Shown here in pieces: positions 1,585 to 20,386 of a DNA stretch of 21,357 bases (positions are counted from its first letter, which is position 1; each line of letters starts with the position of its first letter). The stretch spans positions 1-21,357 of IMG/VR virus record IMGVR_UViG_3300015263_000342; one strand, written 5' to 3'. Position numbers and translations under genes: made by a program. The stretch comes from a virus. The notes under the pieces were generated by a model. That model was not told the DNA's origin. It saw only the letters and a program-made list of their open reading frames with translations, and ran no database searches.

Positions 1585-3894
1585 TTAGTGACCTTCTCGT
1601 AGGTTCTTAGCAACTTCCGGCTTAGCTACAAGAGGCATAGCTAACGTATTAGTGTCTTCCATGGATGATTGTACCACTGGTTTTACTTCTTCGCAAAGAT
1701 CCTCCCTACAAGTAGCTACTAGCTGATCGTGAATCTGTAAACTTACCCATGCGTCCATCTTATTTTCAATAAATTTCTTTGTCATAGCGATGGCTGCTCT
1801 GTTTACAATAGAAGTTGCAGTAGACTGAATGGGGAAGTTTAGTGCATTGTTTAGGAGATTATTATATTCTTTACGAATAACTTGAAGCTCCCCTAACGAA
1901 ACCCCGGTTTTTTGGGAAATTTTTCTAAGGTTACGAAAGTCGAGAATAGCATCTCCAAACTTGTCGTAAATTTCCTTTACTCTAGGAAGATGGCGAACTC
2001 TGCCAAACTTACTAGTAACTTTGCCAGTAGTTTTTACTTCTCGAAGATACTTGTCCATTTGTACTTTAAGTTTAGGAAATGCTTTAAAGTATCGGCGAAT
2101 GATTAACTCCGCTTCTTCTTCTGAAATGTTCAGACTTTTAGCGAGCTTAAAGGCTTTCATTCCATATCGAATACCGAGAGCGTAGGCTTTGGCATCTTGA
2201 CGAACCTGTGGGTATTTCTTTTTCAGGAAGTTCGGAGCCTTCTTGTCAGCGGAAGCGTCGGAGATTCCTTGCGCCATGATAGCAATTACTGAGTACATAT
2301 CTAGGTTGTCGGTAAAGATTCTAATGAGAGCTTCATCTCCAGCATCGTCAGCGAAACAACGTGGCTCAAGAGATTCATAATCGTCGTCGATAAACTTATA
2401 ACCCGGAGGAGGAATTACTAGTTCCCGAATGGAATCGTTATACTTCTTTACTAACACATGCTCAACGCTGTCTTCATCCTTTGGACGAGGAAGTTGTTGG
2501 AAGTCACTAGAGTATCTGCCAGAAGTAGTACCATGTTGCTTGAAGGTAGGATAGTAAACTCCGTCTTCATGGTTCTCAAGAAATCTATCGTAATAGCTAC
2601 TCTTAATCTTGTTAAGCTTGTTATAAACTCGAAGCTTTTCAGCCCAAGGATGATCCTTAGAAATACTTTCAACAAAATCTTCATTGAATTGCGGAGATCC
2701 TTTGGCTGTTTTTGTAAGAGGCTCGATCCCCATGTAGTTAAATACTAAATCCCCGATTTGAGTCTTGGATTGAATGTTAATTAAGTACTCTGTCTCATTA
2801 TCTTTTTTTAGTAGATTACATCTAATATCCCAAATAGAATTATGACCTAAATAGTGTGCATCATTAGTTAATAGAAATTTCTTCCAGCAACTATCTGGTA
2901 AAGCTTCAATTGTTTTTTTGTTAATCAGAAATTTTCCATTCGTTCCAGTAGGTAGTTCTAGACCTGCATAATCACAAAGCTCCTGAGCAAAAGAACCTTT
3001 ACACGATACTGAATATTGTTCTAATTTAGTTTGAATATAATTACTCCAAGCTGGAGTGTTGTATAAAGCTTCCACAACTTCTTTTTCATATTCAAGAATA
3101 TCTGCAGTAATTCCTGCGTGAAGTTCCTGTAGTCGAGGTAAATCAATGTGAACTCCACGATGCTCCATGCGAATAGTGACATACTTCTGTAGAGGCATTA
3201 CTTCTTGATTGTAAAAGAAATCGTGAAGGTTTTCTTTAATGAGACGTTGCTCATTATGTTGGAACAAACGTAAGGTTAAGTCAACGTCAGCACAAGCATA
3301 CTTAGAGATGATATCCAGATCACCTTTATAGATATCTTTCTGTTTATCGACCCACTTACCACCGTTCTTAATTACAGAATCTTTAAGCTCCATCTGTTCT
3401 TGATTGGCGAAGTCTTGAGAGTCAAGTCCAAGCTCAACAGCCTTTCGAGTACAGACTTCTTTAAGAGCGAATGGACCTTCTTCGTTCAGAGTGTGTTCCA
3501 TTAATTGAGTATCAGCATGTAGACTTGATAGAAGGTTAAATTTAAAATAGTTTATAGTTACTCTAATATCAAAAGAAGCATTGTGCATTATGAGTTTTTT
3601 AGTCTTCAATATACTAAGAAGTTCATCGCACCTTTCTTTTGTATAAAAGGAATGAGTCATGAGGGAGTGAATATATTTATTCCAAAAAAATACTGGGAAG
3701 TAGTATCCTATTTTAGGTTTTCCAGTAAAGGAAAATCCAATAACTTTTTCCTTGCGAACATTAAGTCCTGTAGTTTCTGTATCATAAGCTACATACTCCG
3801 ACTCTTTAAGATGATAGATTGCTTCTTCTAACTTCTCTTCGCTGTCAATTAAAACATATTTCTTACCAAAAATTACGTCGTCTAGTGTGCTCAT
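1585..3894 (-). CDS. Family A DNA polymerase with 3'-5' exonuclease domain
   Basis: This 769-residue enzyme copies the phage genome. The N-terminal DnaQ-like proofreading domain has motif I YDTETTGL (D38, E40), motif II HNASFD (D109) and motif III YACADVD near residue 200. The polymerase domain has motif A DDDYESLEPR, in which the catalytic Asp and the Glu are kept, motif B RQDAKAYALGIRYG, and motif C IHDQLVATC. Two positions are unusual: the O-helix residue equal to E. coli Phe762 is Leu, and motif C has HDQ where HDE is usual. There is no 5' nuclease domain, as in T7-type enzymes. An AAGGA site five bases before the ATG sets the start, which overlaps the upstream 75-aa gene by 32 bases. The family is certain; the effect of the two substitutions is inferred. 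Confidence 0.97.
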   Translation of the reverse strand: MSTLDDVIFGKKYVLIDSEEKLEEAIYHLKESEYVAYDTETTGLNVRKEKVIGFSFTGKPKIGYYFPVFFWNKYIHSLMTHSFYTKERCDELLSILKTKKLIMHNASFDIRVTINYFKFNLLSSLHADTQLMEHTLNEEGPFALKEVCTRKAVELGLDSQDFANQEQMELKDSVIKNGGKWVDKQKDIYKGDLDIISKYACADVDLTLRLFQHNEQRLIKENLHDFFYNQEVMPLQKYVTIRMEHRGVHIDLPRLQELHAGITADILEYEKEVVEALYNTPAWSNYIQTKLEQYSVSCKGSFAQELCDYAGLELPTGTNGKFLINKKTIEALPDSCWKKFLLTNDAHYLGHNSIWDIRCNLLKKDNETEYLINIQSKTQIGDLVFNYMGIEPLTKTAKGSPQFNEDFVESISKDHPWAEKLRVYNKLNKIKSSYYDRFLENHEDGVYYPTFKQHGTTSGRYSSDFQQLPRPKDEDSVEHVLVKKYNDSIRELVIPPPGYKFIDDDYESLEPRCFADDAGDEALIRIFTDNLDMYSVIAIMAQGISDASADKKAPNFLKKKYPQVRQDAKAYALGIRYGMKAFKLAKSLNISEEEAELIIRRYFKAFPKLKVQMDKYLREVKTTGKVTSKFGRVRHLPRVKEIYDKFGDAILDFRNLRKISQKTGVSLGELQVIRKEYNNLLNNALNFPIQSTATSIVNRAAIAMTKKFIENKMDAWVSLQIHDQLVATCREDLCEEVKPVVQSSMEDTNTLAMPLVAKPEVAKNLREGH

Positions 3895-6167: not shown

Positions 6168-6404
6168 CTAATTATAAGGTAATCCTAGAATACCCGCTAT
6201 TCTATTTTTATAAAAAGTTACTAAGTTATTGTCGCCAATTCTCCTCGATACTTCTAAGGCTACAAATAATTCAGGTAACTCTGTATTAGAGAATCTATAG
6301 TCTATGAGCTTTCTTATTTCATCAAATACTTCATCTGTAAACATTTTGTCATTAGACAAATACAACTCGTTTCTTATTTTTTTATTCTTTATTGTGTTAT
6401 CCAT
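6168..6404 (-). CDS. Hypothetical protein, 78 aa
   Basis: Starts MDNTIKNKKIRNELYLSNDK and is probably all-alpha: DEVFDEIRKLIDYRF, LPELFVALEVSRRI and LVTFYKNRIAGILGL. No motif is recognised. It overlaps the end of the intein-split gene by eight bases. There is an eight-base gap to the next gene. Confidence 0.65.
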   Translation of the reverse strand: MDNTIKNKKIRNELYLSNDKMFTDEVFDEIRKLIDYRFSNTELPELFVALEVSRRIGDNNLVTFYKNRIAGILGLPYN

Positions 6405-7944
6405 TCTTTACCTCTCCACAATGCGGGCATTTATAATGGTCGCTGGTGGAATCTTTGTTACAGCTTTTACACCAGCTCCTCCACATCTTAGCACACTCTA
6501 TGGCAAGTTCGCAAGGGAGTAATTCTCTTGGAGCGTCATTAATAATTTCTTTGCGTATGTGTGGATACTTAGCGACTACTGTAGTGAAAGCATATTGCAG
6601 TACAAGTTTCTGCCAGAAGTTAATGATTGGAGTTAGAAAGCGTAATGGTTGATAGTCTAAATCAAAGCACCATAGCCATTTAGGATACTGGGAATAGACG
6701 TAGCCGGGATGGGTAAATGAATGGAGAGTGCCATCGCAGAAGTAAAGGGAGAATCTCAAAGAGTTACCACAAAAAACAGCTTTGCCATTTCTCCTAACTA
6801 AAAGTATATGGTTAGGTACTTCAACACAATAAACTTTACCAGAATAATCAATAACTTTTTCTTGGTTTTCTATTTTTTCAAAAGTGTCGTGAGAGTTGGG
6901 TGTTATGTGTGTGTTGGAATTTTTTAACCAATTTATCTCATATACTCGGTGTTTAGATTTAACCTGTCTTCCTTTTATATAACCAAAATGGTCGCTTCTT
7001 ATTCTATTGGAAGTTCTAAAAGAAGTATTCGCTTTAATTAAAAGTTCACAAATATCATCAGATAACGTCTTTGAAATTGTGGTTAATACATGAGATGTTT
7101 TATTTTTATGCCCATCCCCTAAATATAAGTTTTTTAAAAAAATAGTGATTTGTCTCGGTGATAAGTTTTTTATAAAGTCTGGTGCTTTTTTATTCAAAGC
7201 AAGCTTACCGCATTCCTTATCTAAATAAGAAGCAAGATCTTTATTGTATATATTTATAGTTCCTCTTTTTTTAAATATGTGAGGTTTCAAACCTAAACTA
7301 GAAATTATATTAGCAACCAATTCCATTTCTTTATCATTTTTATAATTTAAACAAAAAGTTATTTGGCTTTTTTTAGAAGTACAACCTTCAGCAACATACC
7401 ATCCAAGTAATGCTAAAAAATTATCCGCTTCAAAAATTAAGTCATCATTCACTTTAATTTGTTGTATTTCTTTTCCTTCCCATTTTCCACCTTTTTTAAA
7501 AATCTTAGGAACTCTGTAATACTTTTCATAAGTCGCAAATTCATACGGAAATTCTTTTCTCCCTGTATTCCCTACTCCGCCATTAGTAGGTGCTTTTGCT
7601 AAATATAAAGAATGATTGGTTGTAACGAGTAAATCAACTCCTCTAGTGTTTAAACTATACATCTTACCATTATAGTTGTATTCAAAATAATGACTAGCTC
7701 TTTGATAAAATAAATTATCATTCTGATCTAACGACATAAATAAATCTTTTTCTATGTCAACATCCTTAAAATATTTCCAACCATTAGATGTTAATACTTC
7801 AGTTTGATCATCATAACACCCATACTTTTCTTTGCTATGTACGCCAATTCTTCCATAGCGTTTCATTATACGTCTAAGCTCAGATTCTGCTTTGTATAGT
7901 GAGTCCCAGTCAAAGTCTTCATCTCCCCAATAGTGTGTAGGCAT
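6397..7944 (-). CDS. Intein-containing phage protein with C-terminal zinc ribbon
   Basis: The 515-residue precursor contains an intein (6763-7818). Removing it leaves a 163-residue mature protein: 42 N-terminal residues (MPTHYWGDEDFDWDSLYKAE to SKEKYG) joined to a part starting SLRFSLYFCDGTLHSFTHPG. The joined region, KYG-SLRF with DGTLHS and PGYVY next to an aromatic helix, belongs to a phage protein type of unknown function as far as I can tell. The mature protein ends in a four-Cys zinc ribbon (CKSC...CPHCGE). The start was set at 7942-7944 because GGAGGGG lies five bases upstream; a longer frame starts at 7959. The gene follows the 80-aa zinc-ribbon gene. Role unknown. Confidence 0.85.
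   Translation of the reverse strand: MPTHYWGDEDFDWDSLYKAESELRRIMKRYGRIGVHSKEKYGCYDDQTEVLTSNGWKYFKDVDIEKDLFMSLDQNDNLFYQRASHYFEYNYNGKMYSLNTRGVDLLVTTNHSLYLAKAPTNGGVGNTGRKEFPYEFATYEKYYRVPKIFKKGGKWEGKEIQQIKVNDDLIFEADNFLALLGWYVAEGCTSKKSQITFCLNYKNDKEMELVANIISSLGLKPHIFKKRGTINIYNKDLASYLDKECGKLALNKKAPDFIKNLSPRQITIFLKNLYLGDGHKNKTSHVLTTISKTLSDDICELLIKANTSFRTSNRIRSDHFGYIKGRQVKSKHRVYEINWLKNSNTHITPNSHDTFEKIENQEKVIDYSGKVYCVEVPNHILLVRRNGKAVFCGNSLRFSLYFCDGTLHSFTHPGYVYSQYPKWLWCFDLDYQPLRFLTPIINFWQKLVLQYAFTTVVAKYPHIRKEIINDAPRELLPCELAIECAKMWRSWCKSCNKDSTSDHYKCPHCGEVKNG
6763..7818 (-). mobile_element. Intein with LAGLIDADG homing endonuclease, 352 aa
   Basis: The element begins at Cys43 of the precursor (CYDDQTEVLTSNGWKYFKDV, splicing block A) and has block B with the TxxH motif (LLVTTNHSLYL). 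Two LAGLIDADG-like motifs follow (LLGWYVAEGC and FLKNLYLGDG), typical of a homing endonuclease domain. The C-terminal blocks F and G read KVYCVEVPNHILLVRRNGKA then VFCGN, followed by Ser as the first C-extein residue. The last residue is Asn as required, but the usual penultimate His is Gly. That variant appears in other phage inteins from my memory. The insertion point is inside a well-formed KYG-SLRF region. The sequence is visibly more A/T-rich than its neighbours, as expected of an acquired element. Confidence 0.93.
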
Positions 7945-7946
7945 TA

Positions 7947-8189
7947 CTACCCCTCCCAAGTCCCATTACAGTCAGGACATCTCCATCCTACTGTACGATC
8001 TCTTTTCATAGAATACAAGCCAATTGCTCGCCCCCAACGATTAGCTTCGCCATATTCTTCCCAGCCTTCATAACTTGCTGCATAAGCTAAAGCTTCATCC
8101 ATTGACTTGCCTTGGCTAAGTGGATAGTCGATAACTAAGCCGCCGTCTAGATTAGCGTTACAGTGGGGACAAAAACCGTTGATGTTCAT
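7947..8189 (-). CDS. Small zinc-ribbon protein, 80 aa
   Basis: Two CxxC pairs frame the protein: FCPHCNANLD at residues 7-10 and WRCPDCNGTWEG at the end. Between them lies a helix-rich part (DEALAYAASYEGWEEYG). The two pairs would bind one zinc ion and bring the ends together. The ATG lies in the end of the next upstream gene region, with its stop seven bases before the intein-gene ATG. Similar small zinc proteins are common in phages. The partner is unknown. Confidence 0.8.
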   Translation of the reverse strand: MNINGFCPHCNANLDGGLVIDYPLSQGKSMDEALAYAASYEGWEEYGEANRWGRAIGLYSMKRDRTVGWRCPDCNGTWEG

Positions 8190-8980: not shown

Positions 8981-9250
8981 TTATTCTCCTAGGATTTCTC
9001 GAATCCTTACGTTCACATCTAGTATAGCATCTTCGTGAGTAAATGGCGATAACTCGTTTTTTATTTCACGAAGAAAAGATTTAAGTTTATCTAACTGAGT
9101 ATCGTTTTCAACAACCTTTAAACTATTTATATCTAGTGTAGATAGAAACCCATTAGCATCATTCTTCACGACAGCAATTCTATCTGGAAGAAACGCAATG
9201 ACTTCACCTGTCATCCAAACTTCACCGTTAAAATAACTTGTCACTCGCAT
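8981..9250 (-). CDS. Hypothetical protein, 89 aa
   Basis: The N-terminal half is beta-rich (MRVTSYFNGEVWMTGEVIAF, then DRIAVVKNDANGFLSTLD) and may be a small SH3-like barrel. The second half is a charged helix (LDKLKSFLREIKNEL) and a C-terminal helix INxRIREILGE-like. An AGGAGG site lies six bases before the ATG. It is the first gene after the large non-coding stretch, so it may use the read-through of the promoter at 9728 or its own. No family is recognised. Confidence 0.7.
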   Translation of the reverse strand: MRVTSYFNGEVWMTGEVIAFLPDRIAVVKNDANGFLSTLDINSLKVVENDTQLDKLKSFLREIKNELSPFTHEDAILDVNVRIREILGE

Positions 9251-9273
9251 GTCATCCTCCTAAAATCCTAAAT

Positions 9274-9296
9274 AAAAAAGCGAGCCGCAACCTCAC
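9274..9296 (-). terminator. Probable intrinsic terminator of the large RNA
   Basis: On the minus strand, GTGAG and CTCGC pair (one G-T) around a seven-base loop and are followed at once by TTTTTT. The stem is short, so termination may be partial and allow read-through into the 89-aa gene that starts 24 bases later. Confidence 0.5.
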
Positions 9297-9721
9297 AACT
9301 TCCAGCGTTTTCTATTTAGCGAATAGCTGCTACGAGGTATGTGACACCTTTGTAAGTTTAAGGTTATTCGCTGCGGTTACAAACTAACAAACTCCCGCCC
9401 CGCTATCCTACCTTGAGTCGGCGTAGGACACCCATGACAAGAAGAGATTTTTCTCTACTTCAAGAATTTGCGTAGCCTCTACCCTACGCTCGATGTATCT
9501 GATTTCCAACCAATCAAGTACACGTAAATCCTCCTTGAACCTCTTTTGGACTGAGGAGTATTTCTACCGCTTGTCAAGTAATGTGTCTTTCCACAACGTC
9601 ACCGACTTAAAGCTGCGCAACTTTTCGGCTATCGGTCACCTTTCCATCCCTACTCGTTCATCATTTGCTAAACGTAAAGCCGAAGCATTTACTAACTACA
9701 CAAAGAGAGGACCCTCGGGCT
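9274..9721 (-). ncRNA. Candidate large structured non-coding RNA, about 450 nt
   Basis: This is the only long stretch without a usable gene on the dominant strand: minus-strand ATG frames in it are very short. It is dense in hairpins: a UUCG-capped stem GTAAATGCTTCGGCTTTAC; ACCGA...TCGGT enclosing AAAG...CTTT; CCTC...GAGG; GCGTAG-8 nt-CTACGC; AGAGA-AAAA-TCTCT; TCCTAC...GTAGGA; AGCGAATA...TATTCGCT. A TGATATAAT extended -10 box at the end of the primase gene and a hairpin plus T-run at 9274-9296 bound it. The 5' GAATAGC could also pair with GCTATTC near the 3' end. I see no RNase P, tmRNA or group I core. Classes such as ROOL, GOLLD or HEARO cannot be judged from memory. Confidence 0.7.
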
Positions 9722-9727
9722 ATTCTT

Positions 9728-9736
9728 ATTATATCA
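9728..9736 (-). promoter_or_regulatory. Extended -10 promoter before the large RNA
   Basis: TGATATAAT on the minus strand matches the extended -10 consensus TGnTATAAT exactly. It overlaps the stop codon of the primase-helicase gene. There is no good -35 hexamer at 17 bases, which an extended -10 promoter can do without. The start would fall near 9721. The same nine bases occur at 13118-13126. Confidence 0.5.
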
Positions 9737-11698
9737 AAATAAATCAATATCTCCACCATCTTTAGCCGCTTTCTTGGCATCTCGAACTTCTTTGAGTTCC
9801 ATTCGTTCGATATCCTCTAGCTCTCTTATATTACCAGTAAGTCCGTCCCAATGCAAATCTGCTGAGAACAATCTGCCCGATCTATTCTTCACGCAATCAA
9901 TCGAGAAGAACTTATCTGTCTCTGGAGTACGTGAGCTATACCCCGGACGGTGGATCGTAAGGATAGCAGTACAAGCCTGAGCAATAGCCGACGAACCTTT
10001 AGCTGCATTGTATGACAATAGAGGCTCGTCAATTGTACTAGACATCTTATTAGGTTGTAGGAATACTAGCACAGCTTTGTTCATATTAATAGCAATCTCT
10101 CGTAGTCCTTGGATAACTGCCGCACTTCCTTGTGTGGGATCAGAAAACTTTGATTGTACTAGCTCCAAGTAATCTACTACAATTAGTCGGAAGTTAACTC
10201 CAAGCTTCTTCTCCGTATTGATAATGGTCTGCCTCATCTCTTCAATACTCTGTCCAGTTTTAAATACAAAGCGTACATTCTTGTACTGATCAGACACAGC
10301 TTTGGCTAGCTTTTGCTGTTCTTCCTTGCTTCCCTCTTTGTAAACTTGGTATAACTTATCTCTATCGAGCTTCGTATGCTTTTGAATAAGCTTTTGAAAT
10401 ACGTCATACTTTGACATATCAAAGCTGAAAAACATAGAACTATCGCCAAGCATTGAAGTATTGTTAAGAATATTAATACCAACAGAAGTCTTACCAACGC
10501 CCGGAGGACCAATGATCCCATACAATCTCCCTACTTGTACATGAAGGTTATCATCTAGACATTTAATACCGAACTTAAGAGTGTTCTTATCAATGTCTTT
10601 TGCATATTGGATAAACAGTTCTGCTGTCTCATCAATACCATGTACATCTGTATCATCTTCTGACTTAGCCGTAGCCGGAACAAGAGTAGAAAGTCTCTGC
10701 AACAATTCATCATTGGCAACAGAGTACACGCCTCCTTTCCATGTCGGGGAATAGATTTGAGCGATGATGTTTTTATAAATCTCACCCTTCGGAAACTTAT
10801 CTTCGCCTACTCTCTCGGATTGTAGTTCAGCCGCAGACTTTAGAAAGTGATATGTCTGAGTCTCATTAAACCCTAGAGACTTAAAGGTAGAACCTAAGAT
10901 CATGAGGGCATGACTACGTTCGCCTTGTTCAAAGAAACCTAGAGAAAGCAGGTACTTTTCTGGAGTTAAGAACTTTGGTTTATCTGCCCAGCTAACATCC
11001 GAGATATCGTAAGCCACCTTCATTTTGGCAGTAACTTCTACTTTAGGAGCCTGCATCTTCAACGTATTAATCTTTGCGTTTGATTTAGCTTGAGTAAAAA
11101 TAGTCTTAAAACTATTCACATCGTCCCAAGATTCTTTTGCTGCTTCTTTAATCTCATCGATGGTAGCATCTCCAAGTCCATTAAAATTAAGAGGGGTTTT
11201 GTAAAGCCCTGTGTCTTGATGCTTACTCAAAGGCAAACGTAAGATTCTATTGGCATTATAGATTTGTCTGTCCAGAGTTTGCAATCCTTCCCCAATATTA
11301 AGGCAGAGATTCTTTACTTGCGTGGGAGTAAACAGTTCGTCTTGGAAGTTAACCTCAACTTGGAACCCTTTCTTTCCCGAAAAGAATAGAGCAATGTTAG
11401 AACTCTCTAGTCCGTACACTTTAACTAGGCGAGCACATAAAGTATGAGCGTCTTCCTTTGCTGCCTCTAGGTTATCAGCACTATCAAAATCCCAATACAA
11501 TTTATTAGTAACAGTGTCTGTAATACCAGCAACGGTTCCAGTTTTTTTAAAGGCATTATACTGCTCGTCGTTATAGAGAAAAGCAGAAGTGTAATAATCT
11601 TTATTCAGATCAATACCTTTATACACATCAGAGTTTACTGGAACAAGGATACCTTTATCTTGAACTCCACGACAGACACGAATATAATTCATGTTCAC
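9734..11698 (-). CDS. AEP primase - DnaB-type helicase fusion
   Basis: Of 654 residues, the N-terminal part is an archaeo-eukaryotic (AEP) primase: LYWDFDSAD gives the metal-binding D70 and D72, FFSGKKGFQVEV (107-117) the second motif, and NRILRLPLSKHQDTG near 150 a third conserved R...S.H..TG-type segment. The C-terminal part is a RecA-fold replicative helicase with Walker A GPPGVGKTS near residue 400 and Walker B LIVVDYLELVQ. It would unwind the fork and lay primers for the neighbouring family A polymerase. It ends GGDIDLF, an acidic tip that resembles SSB tails and the end of the Erf protein. GGAGG lies upstream, four bases from a GTG (11698) and ten from an ATG (11692); either could be the start. 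Confidence 0.93.
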   Translation of the reverse strand: MNMNYIRVCRGVQDKGILVPVNSDVYKGIDLNKDYYTSAFLYNDEQYNAFKKTGTVAGITDTVTNKLYWDFDSADNLEAAKEDAHTLCARLVKVYGLESSNIALFFSGKKGFQVEVNFQDELFTPTQVKNLCLNIGEGLQTLDRQIYNANRILRLPLSKHQDTGLYKTPLNFNGLGDATIDEIKEAAKESWDDVNSFKTIFTQAKSNAKINTLKMQAPKVEVTAKMKVAYDISDVSWADKPKFLTPEKYLLSLGFFEQGERSHALMILGSTFKSLGFNETQTYHFLKSAAELQSERVGEDKFPKGEIYKNIIAQIYSPTWKGGVYSVANDELLQRLSTLVPATAKSEDDTDVHGIDETAELFIQYAKDIDKNTLKFGIKCLDDNLHVQVGRLYGIIGPPGVGKTSVGINILNNTSMLGDSSMFFSFDMSKYDVFQKLIQKHTKLDRDKLYQVYKEGSKEEQQKLAKAVSDQYKNVRFVFKTGQSIEEMRQTIINTEKKLGVNFRLIVVDYLELVQSKFSDPTQGSAAVIQGLREIAINMNKAVLVFLQPNKMSSTIDEPLLSYNAAKGSSAIAQACTAILTIHRPGYSSRTPETDKFFSIDCVKNRSGRLFSADLHWDGLTGNIRELEDIERMELKEVRDAKKAAKDGGDIDLF

Positions 11699-19726: not shown

Positions 19727-19935
19727 TGTTGTTTCTCCTCAGTGTAAAGTTTACTTTCTATCAAAGCCAAGTCTTTCTCATACTGTAACCACATGGCTAC
19801 CTCTTCGAGTTTCCAATCAGATTGATTGAACAATTCGATAGCTTGAGTTATAGTGTTAATTCTTTCTACTAGTTTTTCCATAGCTTGAGTATCATTGTCA
19901 ACACTTAAGCCTCCATCCAATAGTCTAAATTTCAC
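19723..19935 (-). CDS. Hypothetical coiled-coil-like protein, 70 aa
   Basis: A GTG start at 19933-19935 with AAGGAGAA five bases upstream. Reads VDNDTQAMEKLVERINTITQ, then AIELFNQSDWKLEEVAMWLQ and YEKDLALIESKLYTEEK. The spacing of Leu/Ile suits two helices forming a hairpin or coiled coil. It is divergent from the plus-strand HNH gene, which begins about 35 bases away. Its stop overlaps the zinc-finger gene as GTGA. Family not recognised. Confidence 0.7.
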   Translation of the reverse strand: MKFRLLDGGLSVDNDTQAMEKLVERINTITQAIELFNQSDWKLEEVAMWLQYEKDLALIESKLYTEEKQQ

Positions 19936-19969
19936 AGCGTTCTCCTTTTATAATTTAACAAATGTTATT

Positions 19970-20332
19970 ATGAATTGCATAACGTGTAACAATAAGCTAA
20001 CTGGTAAACAAAAAACATTTTGTTCTATAAAGTGTAAAAATTCACACCACCAATCCTACGCCTCTCAAAAAAACAGAGGTAAAGATAGAAAGACTCGGTT
20101 AATTAAACTGTTTGGTGGCGGTTGTACGAAGTGTGGATATAAAAATAATTACTCAGCACTTCATTTTCATCATATCAAAGACAAACTTTTTAAATTGGAT
20201 GCGAGAAATTTATCCAATAGAACATGGAAAGTCTGCATAACAGAAGCAGAAAAGTGTATTTTACTTTGTGCTAATTGTCATGCGGAAGTTCACAATCCCT
20301 CTTTAGATATTGGTAGTGAAGATGGGATTTGA
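19970..20332 (+). CDS. HNH homing-type endonuclease
   Basis: The only plus-strand gene. The 120-residue protein opens with a Cys finger (MNCITCNNKL then FCSIKCKNSHH), then has a basic linker GKDRKTRLIKLFGGGC, C-x2-C (CTKC), the HNH catalytic part SALHFHHIKDKLFKLDARNL, and the final ILLCANCHAEVHN. This is the usual build of free-standing phage HNH nucleases that cut DNA at a home site. A longer frame begins at 19895 but overlaps the opposing gene; the ATG at 19970 starts directly at the finger. No ribosome site is clear. The last 22 bases overlap the 3' end of the tRNA gene. The sequence is A/T-rich and looks acquired. Confidence 0.9.
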   Translation: MNCITCNNKLTGKQKTFCSIKCKNSHHQSYASQKNRGKDRKTRLIKLFGGGCTKCGYKNNYSALHFHHIKDKLFKLDARNLSNRTWKVCITEAEKCILLCANCHAEVHNPSLDIGSEDGI

Positions 20333-20386
20333 ACCCATTTTGTAGTGCTTATAAGACGACCTGCGATAACCAACCGCCCCTTCACC
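20311..20386 (-). tRNA. tRNA-like gene, possibly tRNA-Ile (UAU), 76 nt
   Basis: Reads as acceptor GGTGAAG/CTTCACT, D arm GCGG-TTGGTTA-TCGC with GG in the loop, loop CTTATAA (anticodon TAT), a five-base variable loop ACAAA, T arm ATGGG-TTCAAAT-CCCAT, discriminator A and encoded CCA. Total length is exactly 76. Odd points: bases 8-9 are GG in place of T-R, and the anticodon stem GGTCGT/GCACT pairs only with a bulged C. It may be degenerate or an isoform decoding AUA, a codon that is frequent in this A/T-rich genome. An alternative 96-nt reading starts at 20406 with acceptor AGTGGGG. The HNH stop lies in the T loop. Confidence 0.7.

Follow-up and report, generated by a model that had tools for sequence, protein, structure and literature searches.

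The stretch from 9721 to 9274 on the minus strand of an IMG/VR virus record of 21,357 bases (the whole of which was analysed and is called the window) is, as judged from comparison with related contigs, a conserved structured noncoding RNA. We put at roughly 55% the probability that it represents a mosaic phage RNA, which would be transcribed from its own promoter, would form a homodimer or a larger assembly through a pseudoknot module, A, and would end in a further module, T. The preliminary description, made from the letters of the window, had read it as a structured minus-strand RNA of about 450 nt, and this core interpretation is supported by homologues and by compensatory changes, the test which that description had itself proposed. 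The modular build, a palindromic loop, the insertion of a tRNA in one relative and a widespread 3' module were unseen at that stage.

The locus comprises the following features (contigs carrying relatives are given as L numbers).

9734-11698, minus strand: upstream gene for a primase/DnaB-like helicase, stop codon at 9734-9736
8981-9250, minus strand: downstream gene for an 89-aa protein of unknown function, start codon at 9250-9248
9274-9721, minus strand: putative transcript with predicted ends, placed by the lack of a frame and by homologues in L003, L009, L019/L042, L131 and L008/L010

The gap between the two genes measures 483 nt on the minus strand and contains 9-11 stops per frame on the coding strand, leaving no usable frame, as had been noted for this noncoding stretch in an otherwise gene-dense phage. 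A conserved protein frame, named at the outset as grounds for refutation, was not found, since no frame is kept in the relatives. The 89-aa gene has its own Shine-Dalgarno site (AGGAGG at 9256-9261), and a search for relatives of its protein returned none. ARAGORN and Rfam gave no tRNA or tmRNA in 9251-9736, with neither a tRNA nor a tRNA remnant detected in 9274-9721, and PADLOC on the six neighbouring window genes gave nothing convincing, only a weak PtuB-like match (E 0.013). The window DNA polymerase shares at most 45% identity with its named-phage counterpart (the best being in Flavobacterium phage immuto), suggesting that the window and its relatives are uncultured phages. Elsewhere in the window, an intein with a LAGLIDADG-type domain (6397-7959, minus strand) splits a small phage gene whose homologue in L003 is uninterrupted (...KEKYG/TLRFSVYF), and an HNH-like ORF, recognised by eye, lies at 19895-20332 on the plus strand, almost all other genes being on the opposite one.

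Searches of IMG/VR by sequence pattern and by covariance model gave relatives in about 30 uncultured-phage contigs, all sequences being metagenomic. The helicase has six relatives in viral contigs, of which that of L003 (84% identical) is accompanied by a related stretch in the same place. Pattern scans from conserved pieces gave L008/L010, L009 and L019/L042, then L131 and L075, and module B was found without the rest in L139/L144/L146. The gene contexts are the helicase, a ribonucleotide reductase-like gene (L009, by eye), small genes (L019, L008) and a structural-type gene (L075, by eye). The modules are shuffled between copies: on the 3' side of the same helicase there is nothing in L004, T alone in L002, A-tRNA-B-T in L003 and A-linker-B-T in the window. 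Relaxed patterns for A and B mostly matched other DNA or matched by chance, blastn against named phages and plasmids gave no relative, a scan of genome contigs gave nine matches, of which the four examined looked unlike the window RNA, and model R3 found no match in 398 bacterial genomes of one arbitrarily chosen phylum. A literature search with the module sequences returned nothing relevant.

Module A carries the prediction of self-assembly.

9578-9646, minus strand: module A, an H-type pseudoknot with an inner hairpin, then a second hairpin; covariation
9640-9638/9629-9627, minus strand: stem S1 of A, GGY/RCC, varying by wobbles only
9636-9632/9605-9601, minus strand: stem S2 of A, ACCGA/UCGGU; covariation
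9624-9609, minus strand: inner hairpin, in the third loop of the pseudoknot
9614-9619, minus strand: palindromic 6-nt apical loop of the inner hairpin, candidate homodimer kissing loop
9595-9582, minus strand: second hairpin of A, with a GARAGA loop; covariation

The crossing of GGY/RCC with ACCGA/UCGGU defines the H-type pseudoknot. In an alignment of seven sequences from six lineages (N taken as a missing base), 97.8% of the cells were paired over 14 pairs, compared to 27-42% in slid versions, and both sides had changed in eight of the 14, as in ACCGA/UCGGU to ACCAA/UUGGU or in the stem of the GARAGA loop, which occurs as UGUG/CACA, GAAG/CUUC and UGUA/UACA. A second count for the module gave 98.2%, again with eight pairs altered on both sides. 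Covariation reached 0.418 against 0.167 in shuffles (0/500), a value that overstates independence, as does the other 0/500 for this module, since the shuffle statistics ignore relatedness and the six lineages are all related. A covariance model of A (R2) gave one clear copy each in eight of 32 phage records, scoring 70.7 bits in the window.

At the apex of the inner hairpin, the loop sequence is UGCGCA for the window, UCUAGA for L008/L010 and UGAUCA for L003, L009, L019 and L131. All 21 of 21 cells are self-complementary, with a covariation of 0.762 against 0.158 in shuffles (0/500), the variation comprising three forms only. The two central bases covary as AU, UA and CG and are adjacent, so that they could not pair within one chain. 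The same pattern of covarying palindromes has been read as intermolecular pairing in loop L21a of GOLLD and L9.3 of OLE (PMC12286853), and the cryo-EM study of GOLLD, ROOL and OLE describes symmetric kissing loops whose cores switch between GGCC, GAUC and AGCU (PMC12286853). It is therefore probable from the loop sequences that module A pairs with itself in trans.

Upstream of module A lie two further features.

9728-9736, minus strand: extended -10 promoter-like box TGATATAAT (TGGAGA, 16 nt, TATAAT with TG)
9639-9721, minus strand: 5' domain, common only to the window and L019/L042

The TGA within TGATATAAT is the stop codon of the helicase. TATAATA occurs at the same position in L003 and is missing in L002/L004; a perfect TATAAT marks the 5' boundary in the window, in L003 and, in a different gene context, in L131, which suggests a promoter, while L019 has no -10 box. 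The box and the hairpin with six T that had been proposed to delimit the RNA are both present, although neither exceeds chance by count: promoter-like matches across the whole region numbered 6 against 3.4 by chance, and one hairpin-plus-six-T, at 9288-9274, was found against 1.0 expected in shuffles. Counting the window and its relatives, module A is preceded by three different 5' domains.

The middle of the RNA combines its most variable and its least variable parts.

9429-9581, minus strand: variable linker, about 150 nt of hairpins of the window's own
9406-9428, minus strand: hairpin UCCUAC/GUAGGA, adjoining module B on its 5' side
9348-9405, minus strand: module B, UAGCGGGGCGGG...AGCGAAUAACC, nearly invariant

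In place of this linker, L003 has a tRNA-Val between A and B (ARAGORN; Rfam 43.8 bits), L131 a T module and L008/L019 short hairpins, and in L009 the linker is near-absent. The hairpin before B becomes UCCUAUG/CAUAGGA in L009. Module B is a probable H-type pseudoknot, with GCGG/CCGC and UUAGUUU/AAACU as predicted stems. L009 carries it twice, and in the diverged copy GCGG/CCGC is replaced by CUGG/CCAG and the second stem by the 9-bp UUGUUAGUU/AACUAACAA; the preservation of both stems supports the pseudoknot on thin covariation. The tandem duplication (L009 2630-2870) also takes in the beginning of T, and both copies are in a single RNA. tRNA-like sequences lie 3' of the modules in L003 (6380-6535) and L144 (about 3630-3770), with matching acceptor and T arms and a long insertion between the arms (GGGGATG...CATCCCC), and were called by neither ARAGORN nor Rfam.

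Module T has the widest distribution.

9272-9352, minus strand: module T, an H-type pseudoknot with a GCU-triloop hairpin (R1 67.0 bits, R3 62.2 bits)
9349-9346/9338-9335, minus strand: stem S1 of T; covariation
9344-9340/9297-9293, minus strand: stem S2 of T, UCACA/UGUGA, fixed by the search pattern
9288-9280, minus strand: GCU-triloop hairpin GCG-GCU-CGC, after the variable third loop of the pseudoknot
9279-9274, minus strand: U run (six T), directly 3' of the triloop hairpin

Two covariance models applied to whole records found T 33 times, in 25 of the 32 phage records and at one to three copies per record, a count that is no frequency for phages at large because the records had been chosen for the modules or for helicase relatives. 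The smallest copies, of about 46 nt (L002, L133), read NNGGU-G-UCACA-U-ACCNN-loop-UGUGA, then the GCU-triloop hairpin. Pairing reached 91.7%, with a covariation of 0.364 against 0.122 in shuffles (0/500). S1 changes from GGU/ACC to AGU/ACU and CGU/ACG, and its third pair, free of the search pattern, is paired in 26 of 28 copies (0/20000 permutations). Both-sided change was seen at all four pairs of the triloop stem, whereas the invariance of S2, imposed by the search itself, carries no information. T shares the strand of the preceding gene and in 18 of 28 copies is at most 30 nt past the stop codon of that gene; the preceding genes include the helicase, a DUF932 gene and a D5-like regulator. 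A U run of at least four was present in about 15 of 25 copies and missing in about ten, so that T may not act as an intrinsic terminator in every copy.

In at least ten phages, T follows a gene of 63-75 aa for a D5-like regulator (phrog_323, E 2e-6), the phages with this arrangement being L073, L074, L076-L079, L083, L089, L090, L093 and L133. Other short noncoding stretches whose 5' parts are unrelated also end in T, at L081 8460-8640, with TTGACA-17-TATATT upstream, and at L091 735-880. The window itself has a tRNA gene, missed by ARAGORN (20314-20386, minus strand; Rfam 36.4 bits), directly 3' of its DUF932 gene, a position occupied by a T module after the DUF932 relative in L124.

Energy folding was uninformative. 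The 486 nt folded to -135 kcal/mol with a z of -0.90, the modules taken singly gave z values of -1.9 to +0.6, none of these significant, and energy folding sometimes favoured other folds than the comparative helices. It is thus covariation between relatives that places the feature beyond chance. The local stems listed in the preliminary description fared accordingly: the one capped by UUCG exists at 9679-9686, their stability does not exceed chance, and several, confined to the window, fall in the variable linker. A proposed long-range pairing of GAATAGC (9719-9725) with GCTATTC (9321-9327) was not upheld, as the GCTATTC partner is absent in L003, L009 and L019. In cmscan, neither ROOL nor GOLLD appeared at gathering thresholds or when the E limit was relaxed to 10, pointing to a new family; all Rfam matches up to this E were chance ones (L31 leader, sR28, and PhrS with E 0.24 in L009).

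The main rival is a cis-acting intergenic element of the helicase operon mRNA, concerned with stability, processing or translation and giving no free RNA, which we regard as unlikely but deserving of serious attention. In keeping with it, T stands 3-30 nt past the stops of many unrelated genes, often just before the next start, the promoter box is absent in L019 and before many T copies, and the downstream gene retains its own Shine-Dalgarno site. However, the modules recur beside unrelated genes (helicase, ribonucleotide reductase, D5-like regulator, DUF932) and thus serve no one gene in particular, several long forms have a perfect TATAAT at the 5' boundary, and the tRNA inside one copy points to a processed RNA. 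That tRNA-Val could also be taken to indicate the precursor of a tRNA-type stable-RNA array, with the modules as spacers or processing signals and a window copy that lost its tRNA. The tRNA-like sequences 3' of L003 and L144 would agree with this, as would the window tRNA after the DUF932 gene where L124 has T, but most copies are tRNA-free, including 9274-9721, and selection on structure acts on A and T themselves, leaving such a precursor improbable.

We give very little weight to an RNA like the pseudoknots of type III toxin-antitoxin systems, binding a phage or host ribonuclease; several pseudoknots do occur within one predicted transcript, yet PADLOC gave no toxin-like neighbour among the six window genes, and the modules are unlike one another rather than repeats. 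Least probable of all is chance structure in a neutral spacer or a decayed gene, with which an energy z of -0.9 would be compatible but which is contradicted by the compensatory changes in A and T, by the near-invariance of B across contexts and by the absence of any conserved frame in the relatives.

For a mosaic phage RNA, the extended -10 box over the helicase stop codon would probably drive transcription, and the pseudoknot modules A, B and T, joined through the variable linker, would form a transcript with the GCU-triloop hairpin and the U run at its 3' end. With module A pairing with itself in trans, the RNA may work as a homodimer or a larger assembly in the manner of GOLLD, ROOL and OLE. 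T is probably a shared 3'-end module, placed after many genes and RNAs, that terminates transcription and guards the 3' end, and a T unit in front of which modules were added seems to have given rise to the long RNA. More tentatively, at somewhat less than even odds, these RNAs would constitute a new family of phage RNAs that self-assemble; their pseudoknot modules, along with tRNAs in some cases, would be swapped as cassettes in the gaps behind genes, and their dimer specificity would switch between lineages.

The covariance models of GOLLD, ROOL, OLE and STAXI in Rfam do not match the window RNA, hence membership in these families fails, and the likeness to them may lie in a possible way of working. 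GOLLD is a large structured phage RNA with a conserved 3' part, a variable 5' part and a linker that sometimes contains phage tRNAs (PMC12286853). It resembles the window family in its palindromic loop with a switching core, its linker tRNA and its conserved 3' and variable 5' parts; palindrome switching recurs in the window family in a different hairpin, as a candidate kissing loop. The window RNA differs in length (about 450 nt against about 800), in its sequences and helices and in its 3' part, which consists of two pseudoknots. ROOL is likewise phage-borne, rich in pseudoknots and near tRNAs, with a disordered linker that lacks conserved sequence (PMC12286853), but has different helices. 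OLE forms a dimer partly held by a sequence-switching palindromic kissing loop (PMC12286853), as is predicted for the window RNA, but belongs to Gram-positive extremophile bacteria. STAXI has tandem pseudoknots near DNA-handling genes (PMC2864571), repeating one pseudoknot where the window RNA has three different ones. T resembles the bacterial REP elements and L17 downstream element as a structure in the 3' UTRs of many genes, and differs from them as a pseudoknot with a GCU triloop, in one to three copies per phage and with no Rfam match.

GOLLD and ROOL are found in phages and their self-assembly was shown only recently. The window family is smaller and modular, with palindromes that differ by lineage, which makes its predicted dimer specificity accessible to simple mutation. 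Module T would represent a 3'-end element general to phages and missed by existing libraries.
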